Assembly (NCBI RefSeq): GCF_001010805.1
Contig: NZ_CP011477.1
Location: forward strand, 1,999,001-2,063,000
Source: Spongiibacter sp. IMCC21906
Lineage (GTDB): Bacteria; Pseudomonadota; Gammaproteobacteria; Pseudomonadales; Spongiibacteraceae
Length of the DNA stretch: 64,000 bases
Direction: 5' to 3'
Shown here: piece by piece, positions 8,293 to 14,746 of the stretch
Layout of the letters: every line of letters begins with the position of its first letter
Position numbering within the stretch: the stretch's first letter is position 1
The notes under the pieces: model-generated
Databases searched by the model: none
The model's input: the letters and a program-made list of their open reading frames with translations, nothing else
Told to the model about the DNA's origin: nothing
Translations under genes and position numbers: made by a program

Positions 8293-8370
8293 TTTGCCTA
8301 ATTGGTTAAATCAACCTCATTCCTGTAACCGGTACCTTTGTGCCGGTTTGCTATTTGTAGAGAGAGCTCC

Positions 8371-9954
8371 GTGTCCATTCCTGATATTCATGCCCACCGT
8401 ATTCTGATTCTCGATTTTGGCTCCCAATACACACAACTGATTGCCCGCCGGATTCGGGAAATTGGCGTGTATTGCGAGATTCGTGCGTTTGATATTAGCG
8501 ATGAAGATTTTGACGAATTTAAGCCCTCCGGCGTGATTTTGGCGGGTGGCCCCGAGTCGGTGACAGAGCTAGGTTCACCACGGGCACCTGAAAAAGTGTT
8601 TTCAGCAAATATCCCCGTATTGGGTATTTGCTACGGCATGCAAACAATGGCCGAGCAGCTTGGGGGTAAAGTAGAGGGGTCACCGATTCATGAGTTTGGT
8701 TACGCCCAAATTCGTTTAGAAACACCAAGCTCACTTACCGAAGATATTGCTGATCATATCGACAGTGACACTGGTGCCGCGCTGTTGGATGTGTGGATGA
8801 GCCACGGCGACAAGGTTATTACCTTGCCAACAGGCTTTGAAGTTTTGGCCTCAACACCATCTTGCCCTATTGCGGCAATGCAGTGCGAAGATCGCAAGTT
8901 TTACGGCGTTCAGTTTCACCCAGAGGTGACCCACACTCTGCAGGGCAAGCGTATTCTTGAACATTTTGCGTACAAGCTCTGCGGTTGTGAAGGCTTATGG
9001 ACCGCAGAAAATATCATCAACGATGGTATTGAAAAGGTCCGGGAGCAAGTGGGTTCGCAAAAAGTATTGCTGGGTTTATCCGGTGGTGTCGACAGCTCTG
9101 TTGTCGCGGCCTTGTTGCATAAAGCTATTGGCGATCAGCTTACCTGTGTGTTTGTGGACAATGGCCTGCTTCGTAAAAACGAAGGCGACCAGGTGATGGA
9201 CATGTTTGCTAAAAACATGGGCGTTAAAGTAATTCGAGTGGATGCCGAAGAATTATTTCTTGATAAATTAGGCGGCGAATCCGATCCCGAGAAAAAACGC
9301 AAAATCATTGGCAATACGTTTATCGACGTGTTTGATGACGAAGCCACAAAGCTGAAAGACGTGAACTTCTTGGCCCAGGGCACGATCTATCCCGATGTTA
9401 TCGAATCGGCGGCAGCTAAAACCGGCAAGGCCCATGTCATAAAATCCCACCACAATGTGGGCGGCCTGCCCGAAACGATGAAAATGGCGCTGGTCGAACC
9501 GCTGCGCGAGCTGTTTAAAGACGAGGTTCGCAAGATCGGCCTGGAGCTGGGCCTGCCCTACGATATGGTCTACCGTCATCCTTTTCCCGGTCCGGGCTTG
9601 GGCGTGCGGATTCTTGGCGAGATCAAGAAAGATTATGCGGATATTCTCCGTGAAGCTGATGCAATTTTCATTGAAGAACTGCGCGCCGCCGATTGGTATC
9701 ACAAGACCAGTCAAGCGTTTGCCGTTTTTCTGCCGGTGAAGTCAGTTGGTGTAGTGGGGGATGCTCGTCGCTACGAATATGTTATTGCTTTACGTGCAGT
9801 TGAAACCATCGACTTTATGACCGCGCGCTGGGCGCATCTGCCCTATGAATTGTTAGAGACAGTTTCTAATCGAATAATAAATGAAATTACCCAGGTTTCT
9901 CGGGTGACTTATGATGTCTCCAGCAAACCCCCTGCGACTATAGAGTGGGAGTAG
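8371..9954 (+). CDS. guaA: GMP synthase (glutamine-hydrolysing)
   Basis: Converts XMP to GMP using ATP and the amide of glutamine. The 527-residue product holds a class I glutamine amidotransferase domain (about 1-200; nucleophile Cys in 'GICYGMQ', His/Glu in '[11 protein letters not shown]'). An ATP-pyrophosphatase domain (P-loop '[10 protein letters not shown]') and a C-terminal dimerisation domain ('[13 protein letters not shown]', ending 'PPATIEWE') follow. GTG 8371 is preferred: it follows AGAGAG and gives the conserved N terminus, whereas the longer frame from 8338 adds 11 poor residues. It is the second gene of guaBA and marks the left edge of the accessory stretch. Confidence 0.98.
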
Positions 9955-10366
9955 TCGTGTGATTTCAGCCGTTGGCACTACATAAAAAATGTTTAATTTT
10001 GCCGCTAAAATGAAAAGTTAGTTGTTGTTGGCTTTTCAGTGAAAGGTTGTTGAAAACCTCTAATTCAACAGCTTTTCTGCTTAGGTTTAGAATGACTTTT
10101 TCAGCCGGTTTTTGCTGTGGCTGATTGCATGACCACAGCCCCGTCATTAGCCAGGCGGCTTTCTGTCCTGTATGTTGTAGGTGTTAATTCGAGATCATGT
10201 CGCTGTTATTACAGTGAAATTTCGTCACCCGACTTAAGGCCTGAGGCATACAGGTCCACTGGTAGTTCAAGGAGTTTCGGCCAGTATTGTCCTGCGGCAG
10301 CGCCTTTGTTTTAGCCTTAAAAGGTGGCGATCATGATCAAATTCGCCACCATCTGGAGGCAGAAAC
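9955..10366. other. 412-bp noncoding stretch between guaA and the ATP-grasp gene, with several hairpins
   Basis: No credible gene is seen; the small open frames here have no start context or composition that stands out. Inverted repeats are GCTGTGG/CCACAGC (10114-10120, 10133-10139), CCTG/CAGG (10240-10243, 10251-10254), ACTGG/CCAGT (10258-10262, 10281-10285) and an 8-bp stem at 10323-10350 just before the ribosome binding site. No T-rich terminator follows guaA. It could be a long leader for the downstream operon; I recognise no known riboswitch class. Confidence 0.45.
10323..10350 (+). promoter_or_regulatory. Hairpin next to the ribosome binding site of the ATP-grasp gene
   Basis: GGTGGCGA (10323-10330) pairs perfectly with TCGCCACC (10343-10350), loop of 12. 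The GGAGG ribosome binding site at about 10354-10358 begins a few bases after the stem, so folding or protein binding here could affect translation start. No T run follows, so it is not a terminator. Regulatory role is inference. Confidence 0.4.
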
Positions 10367-11593
10367 ATGGAGAAAGATCTCAACAAAGGTTACATCGCGC
10401 TTCTTGGCTGGGCGCCCAATGCCGTAGAAGCTGCGGAAAATTTCGATCGTCGTTATGTCGTCGTGGCGCCAGAATGGGCAGAGGAGTATTGCGAAAAGCA
10501 CAATATTCCCTATGTGCCGTGGAACTTTGAAAGACTCAATGATCGTTCGATGGAAATTGCGCAAACCCTGAAAGAGATGGGTGTGGATGTCGCCATTCCG
10601 TTGTTTGAAGAAACAGTGGAATGGGCCGGTGCGATTAACTCGGTGTTACTCGATAACCCGCGCTTGCTTGGCCACTCTATGTTGATGCGTGATAAATCCC
10701 TGATGAAGCGTCGTGCCCAGCTGGGTGGCATTCGTGTGGGTATTTTTGAGGAAGCCCATGATCGGGAAGACGTTATTCGTTTTCTTAAACGGGTCAATCA
10801 AACGCTACTCAAACTCGATGGTGATCTTAACGATCCTATCCATTTTAAAGCCTTTGATAAGGCGGGTTGTCTTGGGCATCGGGTTATCCGCACACCGGAT
10901 GATGTCGATGGTATCCCCGACGAAGAATTTCCTGCGTTAATGGAATCGCATCTCGACGGCTGGGAGTTTGCCGTAGAGGCGTGGGTACATAATGGCAAAA
11001 TCGCCTTCCTGAATATTTCTGAATACGTCACGCTGGGTTACTCGGTGCATGTCCCTGCGTCGCCAGAATTGGAAAAATACCGCCCGCAGATTACCGCTCA
11101 GATTAATAAACTGATCAAAACCTTCGATATTGAATTTGGCATGATTCATCCCGAGTACTTTGTTACCAGCGATGATGAAATGTACTTTGGTGAAGTGGCT
11201 TATCGTCCACCCGGTTTCAAGGTGTTTGAGTTGCTGGAGCGGGTTTATCCCGGTTTTAATGCCTATCATGCGACCTTTATGGTGTTTGATCCTAAAACCA
11301 CCGAAGAAGAAGTCAAAGCTTACTTTCCAACTGCGGTGGAAGATGCCACCGGTTATGCGGGTTGCTTCGGGGTATACCCTCGCCGCCGTGTGGTTAGCCA
11401 GTTAGAAGTTCCGGAAGAGGTTGAAGAGCATCCCTATTTTGAGTCTCACGAACTCACCACGCCACTGGAAGAAATTGTCACCAAGCGTACCGCCTTTGGT
11501 ACCCATTGGGGATTGGTGTATTTTGTCGGCGACAATGCTAAAGAGATGCATGATCTGCTTAAACGGCAGGAAGACCTCGATTATTATGTATAG
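10367..11593 (+). CDS. ATP-grasp domain protein, putative carboxylate-amine ligase
   Basis: A 408-residue ATP-grasp protein of the CarB/PurK-like type; such enzymes activate a carboxylate as acyl phosphate and join it to an amine. An N-terminal Rossmann-like part ('YIALLGWAPNAVEAAENFD') precedes the grasp core ('HLDGWEFAVEAWVHNGKI'). Metal-ligand positions are E263 ('MIHPEYF') and E276 ('GEVAYRPPG'), spaced 13 as in D-Ala-D-Ala ligase, but the Asn expected two residues after the second is Ala278. ATG 10367 has GGAGG seven bases upstream. The next gene follows after 39 bp, forming a two-gene unit. Substrate is unknown; a biotin carboxylase label would be too specific. Confidence 0.82.
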   Translation: MEKDLNKGYIALLGWAPNAVEAAENFDRRYVVVAPEWAEEYCEKHNIPYVPWNFERLNDRSMEIAQTLKEMGVDVAIPLFEETVEWAGAINSVLLDNPRLLGHSMLMRDKSLMKRRAQLGGIRVGIFEEAHDREDVIRFLKRVNQTLLKLDGDLNDPIHFKAFDKAGCLGHRVIRTPDDVDGIPDEEFPALMESHLDGWEFAVEAWVHNGKIAFLNISEYVTLGYSVHVPASPELEKYRPQITAQINKLIKTFDIEFGMIHPEYFVTSDDEMYFGEVAYRPPGFKVFELLERVYPGFNAYHATFMVFDPKTTEEEVKAYFPTAVEDATGYAGCFGVYPRRRVVSQLEVPEEVEEHPYFESHELTTPLEEIVTKRTAFGTHWGLVYFVGDNAKEMHDLLKRQEDLDYYV

Positions 11594-11632
11594 TTGTCAA
11601 TGCGTAATTGCCTGAGCAGTCAAGGAGAATAA

Positions 11633-13648
11633 GTGTTACAGCCTGAGAGCAGCAACGACAAACTGGCATTGCTATTGACGCGCTTCGACGCTGCCATTGC
11701 TGCTTTGCAGCAGGCACCGGCGTTTGCCAAGCCCGGCAAGTTACCACGGGTGATGGATACGGCCCGCCGGGTCATTCGTTTGGATGGTGGCTGTGCGGCA
11801 CTACAGGCTCGGGCCTTCGATATAGAAGAAGCGGGCCTGTTTCTGGGTACGGATTGGTGTGAGCCACAGATATTGCTTTCGGCTCTGACCGCTAGCACCC
11901 TGCGCACAAACAATGCCGATACTCTCGTACTGGAAATTATTAGCCAGTTGCGTTTTTTGGCCGTGGCTAAGGGCGAGTATCCGCATTCGAAACTATCTGC
12001 CGAGCAGGCTCATCACTTTTTAACTCAAGTACTGGCCGTTAATCTCGCCTTGCTGTTTAGCCCGCCCGGTGAAGCCGAGCGTGAACAGATGGGGCGGTTG
12101 GCTGAACTTCCGCACCGCTTGCTTGAGCACCTGGCCAGCAGCATCGGTTATGAACATATTGTCGACCAATTGATTGGTGAAATTTGGCGAATCCTGCAAC
12201 AACGCCCGATTCAGGTCGATGCGGTGAAGCATATGATTACCCAGATCGCGATTTGTCAGGCCAACCCTGATATTGATTTGGGTAGCAGTGGTCAGGGTGC
12301 AGACCGCTTGGTCAGTAGCTTGTTTGGGCCAACTCAAGCTTGCCGTGAAGACCCCGGTATTGATGTTTACCAGCAACAGCTGGATTACATGGATGTCAGC
12401 GCCCTGCAGAACGAAGCCACCGGCATGGCCAGAGCCATGCATGACACGGGCTTGGTATCGCCTTATCACGGCACATTGTTGCGCCATCTGTTGGATAACA
12501 ATGAGCAGCTATTGGCCGAAGCTTTGGGTTTGTCGTCTACTGGCCGTGACTGTCTGCTGTGCTATCGGTCGCTGGTGCATGAGCTTATTCGAGCCAGTAT
12601 TTTCCCAGCTACTTGTCAGGGTATTTATGGTTTGGCGTTATTGCTTGAGCGGGGCATTCTTTACCAGCCATCGGCTGCGCCAGCCATGTGGCGCCAACTT
12701 GGTTTGCGATTAGCACCTGCGGCTCGGGAGCGTTTGCAGCTGGCCTTTGGCGATATCGTCAGTGCTGAAGCTCGACTGTTGGAAGGGGTTTTGTGCATGC
12801 TCGGTTTACCCCTCGGCGTGGGGCAGGGCAATAATCCGACCTGTCAGTCTGCCCGTGCCCTGTCAATATGGGCCTATAACGACCCGGGTTATCTGTTACA
12901 AATGCTCGCGTGGGCAGCCCGAGACGATGAAATCATCATGCACTTCGAGGGTCAGCCGATCTCCTCTCAAGACAGTCAAACTGGGGTTGCGAGTTTGGCG
13001 CCGATTGATCTTGATCCCTTGTCGCTATTGGTTGTACCCCATCTAGACCGGATTTACGCAGAGATGGGGCGACGTTGCATTGGCCGCGAAGGGGATCCGC
13101 ATCGCTGGGTTAATCCTGAGTTTCATGGCTGGTGGTCTGGCCGCGGTTTTTGCATCAATGTGGATGTTGCCACCGGGGCACTCATTAATTTGGACGATTT
13201 TATTCGTCACTTCTACGCCACCTACCATCCTTACTACAACGGTAACCAGCCCCTGATACATCCCCAGCCGGCAGGGGTTGCCGTGACTGACAGTGCGGCG
13301 CGTTTTATTGGTTGGCACGCCATTACCATATTACGGGTGGCCCTTGATCCTCAGGACGGGATGCGGGTGTATTTCTACAACCCCAATAATGACAGCGGCC
13401 AGAACTGGGGAGATGGCGTCACCGTGAGTACCGCAGGGCAGGGCGAACGCTTTGGCGAAGCTTCATTACCCTTCGAGCAGTTTCTGTCGCGCTTGTATAT
13501 CTACCATTACGACCCGCTGGAGCACGGTGAGTTAGCCAATGTCAGTCGTGCTGATCTTGAGCAGGTTATGGGGTATATCCGCCGCAGTTGGGGTGCAGAT
13601 CGGCTGCCAGCCGAGGAAATCCATGCTGATGATGGTTCTGCCCTTTAA
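11633..13648 (+). CDS. Unknown 671-residue protein with a papain-like C-terminal Cys/His/Asn pattern
   Basis: I do not recognise a named family. Residues 1 to about 380 look all-helical. The C-terminal 290 residues carry a pattern like a papain-fold enzyme: Gln398, six residues before Cys404 ('GQGNNPTCQSARALSIW'), as Gln19 and Cys25 are spaced in papain. His562 follows ('GWHAITIL'), then Asn583 and a G-x-x-W-G turn ('YNPNNDSGQNWGDG'). That predicts a thiol peptidase, amidase or acyl transferase. No signal peptide or membrane segment, so probably cytoplasmic. Start GTG 11633 with AAGGAG five bases upstream. It is paired with the ATP-grasp gene, which suggests the two act on the same amide bond. 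Function is inference. Confidence 0.75.
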   Translation: MLQPESSNDKLALLLTRFDAAIAALQQAPAFAKPGKLPRVMDTARRVIRLDGGCAALQARAFDIEEAGLFLGTDWCEPQILLSALTASTLRTNNADTLVLEIISQLRFLAVAKGEYPHSKLSAEQAHHFLTQVLAVNLALLFSPPGEAEREQMGRLAELPHRLLEHLASSIGYEHIVDQLIGEIWRILQQRPIQVDAVKHMITQIAICQANPDIDLGSSGQGADRLVSSLFGPTQACREDPGIDVYQQQLDYMDVSALQNEATGMARAMHDTGLVSPYHGTLLRHLLDNNEQLLAEALGLSSTGRDCLLCYRSLVHELIRASIFPATCQGIYGLALLLERGILYQPSAAPAMWRQLGLRLAPAARERLQLAFGDIVSAEARLLEGVLCMLGLPLGVGQGNNPTCQSARALSIWAYNDPGYLLQMLAWAARDDEIIMHFEGQPISSQDSQTGVASLAPIDLDPLSLLVVPHLDRIYAEMGRRCIGREGDPHRWVNPEFHGWWSGRGFCINVDVATGALINLDDFIRHFYATYHPYYNGNQPLIHPQPAGVAVTDSAARFIGWHAITILRVALDPQDGMRVYFYNPNNDSGQNWGDGVTVSTAGQGERFGEASLPFEQFLSRLYIYHYDPLEHGELANVSRADLEQVMGYIRRSWGADRLPAEEIHADDGSAL

Positions 13649-13918
13649 GCGGGCGGCGTCACTTTCCCGTGTCCGAGGCCTCGATAATCAGCTGAGGGCT
13701 TAGAAACCTGAAGCGCAATTTACCTTTACGGCGTCTCAGGTAGTGGGCTGTTTGGGTGTGTTTGATTTAAAAAAACAGAATGCTTTAGTAAACGATTTTC
13801 TACTGCGTTGTCGAACATTATGGTTATTCGCAATTAAATAGCTTTTGGCTATACCGAGCGCCAGATCGGCGTCTGTTAATCAGCGCGAATGAGGTGGTGT
13901 TCCGTGGTGGCAATAAAA

Positions 13919-14746
13919 ATGCAAAAATGGTGGCTGTGTTTTGCGGTGATGGTTGCGCCAGCTGCCCATGCCCTTAAAGCGGGTGATCTCATTGTTCAGG
14001 GTGGTTGGTTTTATATTGCCCCCCAGGAATCCAGTGAGCCGCTCAATACCAAGCTGGCTCCCAGTCTTGCGGGTAGCGCATTGGGGATAGACCCGCATTT
14101 TAGCTCACCGGGAACGTCGTTATCGGTCAGTGATTCCAATACTCCGGCTTTAACGCTTTCTTATTTTCTGACGGACCATTTTGTTGTGAAGTTAGAGGGG
14201 GGAGTTCCCGCCGAGTTTGATTTGTCAGGTCAAGGCGTTGTGAGGCCAACGGGGCCAGCGGGTGCGCTGGTAAACGTTGATCTTGGGGCGTCACAAAACA
14301 ATCCATTGGCTTCCGTGAGGCAATGGAGTCCGGCAATATTGGGTCAATATTACTTTCGCAATCCTGGCGATAAAATACGCCCTTACCTCGGTTTGGGAGT
14401 TACGTATACGTGGTTTGATAATATAGAACCGGATAAAGACTTTGAGCAGAGTCTGAATCAAAATTTTGGTTCGGTGCTGGCGCTGGCAACGGATAGTAAT
14501 CCAAACACCCATGTTAGTGCCGAGGCTGAGTCGGATATTGCACCGATTTTTAATGCCGGTTTGTCGCTAGAATTAGATGAGCGGTGGAGTCTGTCGCTTT
14601 CTGTATCGTATTTAGCATTAAAAACCACATCGCAAATCACGATTAGCTCAAACGATGGAACTCAGCTTGCTAAAAGCAACAGCAAGCTCGACTTAAATCC
14701 GATTGTTTCTTCTTTCTTGATTTCTTATCGTTGGGGCGACGATTAA
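13919..14746 (+). CDS. OmpW-family outer membrane beta-barrel protein
   Basis: A 275-residue precursor. The signal peptide 'MQKWWLCFAVMVAPAAHA' is cleaved before 'LKAGD'. The mature part has the OmpW signature order: 'GDLIVQGGWFYIAPQ' first strand, 'PALTLSYFLTDHFVVKLEGG', 'PAILGQYYF', 'IRPYLGLGVTYTWFDN', 'FNAGLSLELDERWSLSLSVSYLALKTT', and a C-terminal strand ending 'ISYRWGDD'. Longer than E. coli OmpW (about 210) because of loops. ATG 13919 is preferred; earlier in-frame starts at 13889 and 13904 would extend the signal. It lies 270 bp after the ATP-grasp unit and may or may not share its function. OmpW proteins are small barrels for hydrophobic molecules; the substrate here is unknown. Confidence 0.82.
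   Translation: MQKWWLCFAVMVAPAAHALKAGDLIVQGGWFYIAPQESSEPLNTKLAPSLAGSALGIDPHFSSPGTSLSVSDSNTPALTLSYFLTDHFVVKLEGGVPAEFDLSGQGVVRPTGPAGALVNVDLGASQNNPLASVRQWSPAILGQYYFRNPGDKIRPYLGLGVTYTWFDNIEPDKDFEQSLNQNFGSVLALATDSNPNTHVSAEAESDIAPIFNAGLSLELDERWSLSLSVSYLALKTTSQITISSNDGTQLAKSNSKLDLNPIVSSFLISYRWGDD

Follow-up and report, generated by a model that had tools for sequence, protein, structure and literature searches.

Which process is served by an ATP-grasp ligase encoded immediately upstream of a candidate papain-like cysteine enzyme? The question is raised by two adjacent genes, here called A and B, in a 64,000-nucleotide stretch of DNA from Spongiibacter sp. IMCC21906 (contig NZ_CP011477.1, positions 1,999,001 to 2,063,000); this whole stretch is referred to below as the window, and the positions of the two genes are counted from its first letter. 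The genome comprises 3.48 Mb in two contigs and holds one copy of A and one of B. Gene A (10367..11593, plus strand) starts with ATG and encodes a 408-residue protein of a divergent ATP-grasp ligase type; gene B (11633..13648) follows on the same strand after a gap of 39 bp, starts with GTG and encodes a protein of 671 residues that has no Pfam or NCBIfam match and carries a papain/C39-like motif in its C-terminal third. From the distribution of the two genes, their neighbourhoods and the conserved residues of their products, we propose that A and B form a two-enzyme module added onto ectoine-based (compatible-solute) metabolism, a reading to which we give a probability of about one half.

Genes A and B form a conserved pair

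An earlier, sequence-only reading of this locus had described two open reading frames (ORFs) of 408 and 671 residues, spaced by 39 bp on one strand, with strong ribosome binding sites and in an accessory stretch. The coordinates were reproduced, and the binding sites correspond to GGAGG before A (10355..10359, plus strand) and AAGGAG before B (11622..11627, plus strand). The accessory character of the stretch is borne out by the genus, where G006 is the only one of 17 other genomes (one of them 84% complete) to carry A and B. Aligned relatives are 72-92% identical to the window copy of A and 40-85% identical to that of B, so both are genuine genes and not chance ORFs. Neither is an outlier in guanine-cytosine content (0.48 for A and 0.55 for B, with 0.50 for the window).

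A survey of genome neighbourhoods, as proposed in the sequence-only reading, found the pair to be conserved. Among 145 relatives (E-value thresholds of 0.001 for B and 1e-10 for A), B occurs in 19 genomes and A in the same 19 and in G020, which is 70% complete; across 369 genomes of the class (0.001 for B and 1e-20 for A), A and B are found in the same 13, two of which, G000 and G091, are shared with the relatives. The thresholds for A were stricter because looser ones would count other ATP-grasp genes. A query with the second subtype of A detected A in 58 of 390 genomes of the order (E 1e-50), and a profile of B detected B in 11 of 398 genomes of the phylum (E 0.001).

In the 80 top-ranking named loci for B, a selection that favours the subtype of the window, A lies directly upstream on the same strand in 76 cases and is not seen nearby in four. 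One of these four, Halomonas sp. A40-4, has B without A within 18 kb and a second-subtype A elsewhere in its genome. The carriers of the 80 loci belong mostly to halophilic or marine genera, for example Halomonas, and include Ectothiorhodospiraceae. Halomonas elongata and Alcanivorax jadensis are two of the species with the pair. Gene order is varied in a set of 80 other stretches picked for a found or reported A or B, some of which end at contig edges and several of which may come from one genome: A precedes B in 33, B precedes A in 7, the genes diverge in 8 and converge in 2, A stands alone in 17 and B in 12, and one stretch has neither. A and B also occur unlinked in some genomes. Across 50 cis pairs the distances among A proteins correlate with those among B proteins (Mantel r 0.73, with 0 of 999 permutations as high), a correlation that ancestry alone also raises. 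The co-occurrence of the two genes despite their varied order argues for functional coupling, which we regard as close to certain. Together with the conserved candidate catalytic residues described below, it upholds the earlier view that the ATP-grasp and papain-like genes form a linked pair.

Two mobile or defensive roles were considered and rejected. The first is cargo of phages or plasmids: a search of the phage collection with B, the one gene used there, gave no match, 16 viral-contig stretches that fit a pattern are not relatives, and among plasmid records the two genes each hit a single entry, a Halomonas replicon of 1.83 Mb. The second is anti-phage defence, for which no PADLOC family matches A or B at E ≤1. 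A 60-residue fragment of B with one stop (L142, G039:C10:1017440-1017619) indicates that B paralogues decay too.

Ectoine synthase accompanies the pair

The presence of the pair tracks that of ectoine synthase (EctC), the sole salt-tolerance family for which co-occurrence was tested. EctC exceeded its family cut-off in 20 of 20 A-bearing relatives vs 55 of the 125 other relatives (Fisher p 5.5e-7; genus-level p 7.6e-5; neither value is fully corrected for kinship). In a second test all 12 additional pair-bearing genomes (G520 and 11 from the class) had it, as against 0 of 20 pair-less genomes of the class; the latter were the first of the class sample after exclusion of the low-completeness genomes G149 and G151, and this is the weaker contrast, since they come from other families. 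All 32 pair-bearing genomes tested thus carry EctC. Within the genus of the window, EctC is also present in all 16 pair-less genomes, which makes the pair an optional addition. We consider a link of the pair to ectoine or compatible solutes moderately probable. The sequence-only reading had recognised no named pathway for the pair, and this stands as far as the literature and family libraries searched go; it had missed the association with EctC, which supplies a metabolic setting.

The association extends to gene neighbourhoods, which were clustered from home-made ORF calls scored by composition to exclude antisense ORFs. An ectoine synthase gene lies no more than five genes from A or B in six loci from six genera, and all six products pass both PF06339 and NF009806; G022 adds a seventh genus, with the order A-B-ectC at a contig end. 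The 32 carriers have 38 EctC copies between them, of which 5 are 2 kb or less from A or B vs 0.12 expected (Poisson p 2e-7). In G095, G022 (75% complete) and G402 no EctC was found other than the adjacent copy; G402 has B, a deacetylase gene, A and EctC in this order on one strand.

In a tree of EctC proteins the seven copies adjacent to A or B do not form one clade: one groups with EctCs from the ect clusters of the genus group to which it belongs, and five others fall in a different supported group. The tree does not support a single inherited paralogue as the source of the adjacent copies: five gains or losses would be needed, and supported branches force three or more of these. Separate gains do not follow from this, as three changes may amount to one gain and two losses. 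Repeated linkage of EctC to the pair is the simplest reading of the tree, and losses are also possible. The EctC beside A in G006 (L129 5175-5573) groups with the EctC of genus g21 (L236 5988-6386) with support of 100/99, which suggests transfer of EctC between genera.

Three further sequences (L239 6020-6454, L263 1468-1869 and L264 1432-1902) form a separate, long-branched EctC-like clade (support 100/100) and occur besides the ordinary EctC of the same genomes. In four g21 genomes (L236, L240, L245 and L248), ectC lies apart from ectAB and adjoins transporter-like and PLP-decarboxylase-like genes, both named by eye. The notion that g21 possesses EctC and lacks the ectoine pathway was rejected, as all four genomes tested have an EctB-like gene elsewhere, at 63-64% identity to an EctB query named by eye.

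Candidate catalytic residues of A and B

The ATP-grasp label that A received from its sequence is supported at the level of the family. PF13535 (ATP-grasp_4) was recovered at E ≤0.01 in each of the 27 aligned A proteins (best 8.9e-7), though the window copy, at E 3.5e-5 and 23.9 bits, is under the Pfam curated cut-off of 27 bits. When a profile of A was compared with the PDB, it aligned over some 120 positions with two L-amino acid ligases, 4wd3 and 3vot (E 0.00097 and 0.0023). Ten candidate functional positions, picked by eye, are identical in all 27 proteins. The same invariance is seen for Lys161 (codon 10847..10849), the presumed ATP-binding lysine, and for Glu263 (11153..11155) and Glu276 (11192..11194), the presumed metal ligands; all three were assigned by eye and their codons are on the plus strand. 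We think it very probable that A is an active ATP-grasp ligase and that it belongs to a subfamily of its own.

The product of gene B is less readily placed. For the window protein, neither Pfam nor NCBIfam has a family that matches at E 1; the 38 aligned B proteins give a few chance-level matches to Pfam (best E 0.011), none of them to a papain-like family; and comparison with the PDB yields nothing credible by sequence (best E 0.58) or by profile (best 0.044, a designed helical protein). The B family is absent from the versions of Pfam and NCBIfam searched. The C-terminal third of the protein, which follows a long N-terminal part of about 380 residues, contains GQGNNPTCQSAR, GWHAI and FYNPNND, and Gln398, Cys404, His562, Asn583 and Asn585 are invariant in all 38 aligned proteins, even where identity falls to 40%. 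Gln398 (codon 12824..12826) is the presumed oxyanion-hole glutamine, Cys404 (12842..12844) the presumed nucleophile and His562 (13316..13318) the presumed catalytic histidine; one of the two asparagines in Asn583-Pro584-Asn585 (13379..13387) is presumed to be the third catalytic residue, all of these codons being on the plus strand. In papain and C39 enzymes a glutamine stands six residues before the cysteine, followed by histidine and then asparagine, and B presents Gln-x5-Cys, then His, then Asn. We take B to be an active cysteine enzyme with a papain/C39-like motif, and from the order of these residues we infer a papain fold. The support for the papain-like label given to B in the sequence-only reading lies in this invariant Gln/Cys/His/Asn motif.

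Other genes near the pair

Two ORFs named by eye flank the pair in the window, guaA-like (8338-9954) on one side and outer-membrane-protein-like (13889-14746) on the other. Elsewhere, a gene of the histone deacetylase family (PF00850) lies near the pair in eight loci from seven genera, a count that stands without a genome-wide rate. In a PDB comparison this deacetylase is nearer to HDAC6-like enzymes than to polyamine deacetylases, and in two loci, L112 and L129, it has a GNAT acetyltransferase gene beside it. The 80 named loci yield weak deacetylase-family matches (30-42% identity) in six cases, which were not counted as linkage. In G303 the pair is flanked by a BCCT transporter gene and a gene of the mechanosensitive-channel family. 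The largest cluster of neighbours, ABC-transporter ATPases from nine genera, was set aside as a large family. The clustered neighbourhoods share no precursor peptide or other target gene, and no glutamine amidotransferase gene recurs in them beside the pair.

Some paralogues have neighbours of their own. Two B paralogues of g21 (L120 4051-8870 and L122 6280-12458) adjoin putrescine-transporter-like genes (PotI and PotF are the best NCBIfam matches, below their cut-offs), and two others (L114 6025-10804 and L121 6279-10868) precede a weak match to GCS2 (glutamate-cysteine ligase), after which comes a 351-residue gene product without a Pfam match. In G429 (L135 6031-8953), A lies 53 bp downstream of a gene for L-piperidine-6-carboxylate dehydrogenase (NF050084, over the cut-off), an enzyme of lysine catabolism; the B of this genome is about 55 kb from A.

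Discussion

Our analysis describes a pair of genes that are almost always found together and whose products resemble several known enzymes in part. L-amino acid ligases share an ATP-grasp region with A, at the level of remote similarity, and are not known to include a papain-like partner. BtrH-type papain-fold acyltransferases and C39 peptidases have a Cys-His-Asn/Asp pattern with a glutamine before the cysteine; unlike them, B is matched by none of their Pfam models. The amidoligase systems of Iyer et al. 2009 reportedly combine ATP-grasp ligases with peptidase-type partners. A description of the pair was not found in the open-licence literature, among the titles and opening abstract lines of the matches listed, and an earlier mention in Iyer et al. 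2009 is possible.

The closest likeness in working is to the glutathionylspermidine synthetase/amidase (Gss) of Escherichia coli, in which, as in our proposal for A and B, an ATP-grasp-type ligase is combined with a papain-like (CHAP) amidase able to undo the product. The CHAP amidase also features in a published account that places BtrH_N close to C39 (PMC10318531). Gss differs in being a single fusion protein whose domains, PF03738 and PF05257, are matched by neither A nor B. An hhalign comparison with a single Gss sequence, a weak test, gave probabilities of 1.7% for B and 0.07% for A. Membership of A and B in the Gss family is not supported, since the domains are absent and the profile comparison shows no relation. 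The ectoine pathway EctABC offers a different kind of likeness: EctC is found in all 32 tested carriers and beside A or B in seven genera, and A and B are outside the pathway as described. A review regards the role of solitary EctC as unresolved (PMC5924519).

We propose the following model for the module. A would activate a carboxylate with ATP and join it to an amine, giving an amide; Cys404 of B would then attack an amide, in the simplest case the one made by A, and B would either hydrolyse it or hand its acyl part on to a different amine. Substrates would most likely come from a pool of ectoine, of diaminobutyrate or acetyl-diaminobutyrate, or of an amino-acid solute that is made with them. 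The chemistry of both proteins, and the direction in which B works, are read here from their sequences. That A makes an amide from a carboxylate and an amine of the compatible-solute pool which B cleaves or transfers through Cys404 is put forward tentatively as the likeliest mechanism, its exact chemistry being less probable than not. In a more specific form, A would couple ectoine or diaminobutyrate to another molecule, B would transfer or release it, and some solitary EctCs and the deacetylase would serve this undescribed branch; we think this form rather unlikely, and if true it would make ectoine an intermediate as well as an end product.

Several observations weigh against a module tied to ectoine. 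The 55 pair-less relatives with EctC mean that the pair is dispensable for ectoine. In the genome of the window, ectC (at 547527, in an ectA-ectB-ectC-ask-like order with neighbours named by eye) and the pair (from 2009367) are 1.46 Mb apart on the same contig, and no ectC, ectA or ectB lies near the 80 named loci, up to 8 kb on each side. In the set picked for layout, 29 of 80 stretches have a single A or a single B, and some genomes have more copies of B than of A, such as G039 with five full B and two A. Saline habitat may explain part of the link, as EctC was the one family of its kind compared. Taken to its end, this last point yields the alternative that the pair is unrelated to ectoine itself and that both are merely common in marine or saline bacteria. 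The preponderance of halophilic or marine genera among the best 80 named carriers is in keeping with it, as are the distance of the window copy and of the 80 named loci from ect genes and the distant families, of habitat not known, that supplied the 20 pair-less class genomes. It is at odds with the proximity of EctC to A or B above expectation, and with the origin of the adjacent EctCs in different parts of the EctC tree, and we judge it improbable.

The remaining alternatives concern the substrate. The pair could make and break a polyamine or peptide conjugate, in the manner of Gss though unrelated to it, with an indirect link to ectoine; the putrescine-transporter-like genes beside two g21 paralogues of B would fit, as would HDAC-family deacetylases near the pair in seven genera, some relatives of which act on polyamines. 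The transporter context is confined to one genus, however, the deacetylase is nearer to HDAC6-like enzymes, and the linkage to EctC is left unexplained, so that we hold a polyamine or peptide conjugate to be unlikely. A system that attaches an amino acid to proteins or peptides as a tag and takes it off again, the N-terminal 380 or so residues of B recognising the target, would give that long region a purpose and agrees with L-amino acid ligases being the nearest PDB relatives of A; with no precursor peptide or target gene shared by the neighbourhoods, we find tagging hard to credit. Much the same low weight goes to the synthesis of another amide solute, of the acetylglutaminylglutamine amide or carbamoylglutamine amide kind, in cells that make ectoine. 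Such solutes accumulate in some halophilic phototrophs (PMC7824335), and Ectothiorhodospiraceae are among the carriers, but the solute is without evidence in any carrier, and a recurrent glutamine amidotransferase gene is missing from the neighbourhoods of the pair.

We return to the two-enzyme module on ectoine-based metabolism. We rate A and B as an amide system of the ATP-grasp and papain-like kind, Gss-like in its working and outside the Gss family, in a metabolic setting that was not expected. One of the carriers, Halomonas elongata, is an industrial producer of ectoine (PMC3187862). A pair tied to EctC gives the question of solitary EctC a defined set of genes and a metabolite to seek, and it suggests that salt adaptation has a branch which has so far gone unrecognised.

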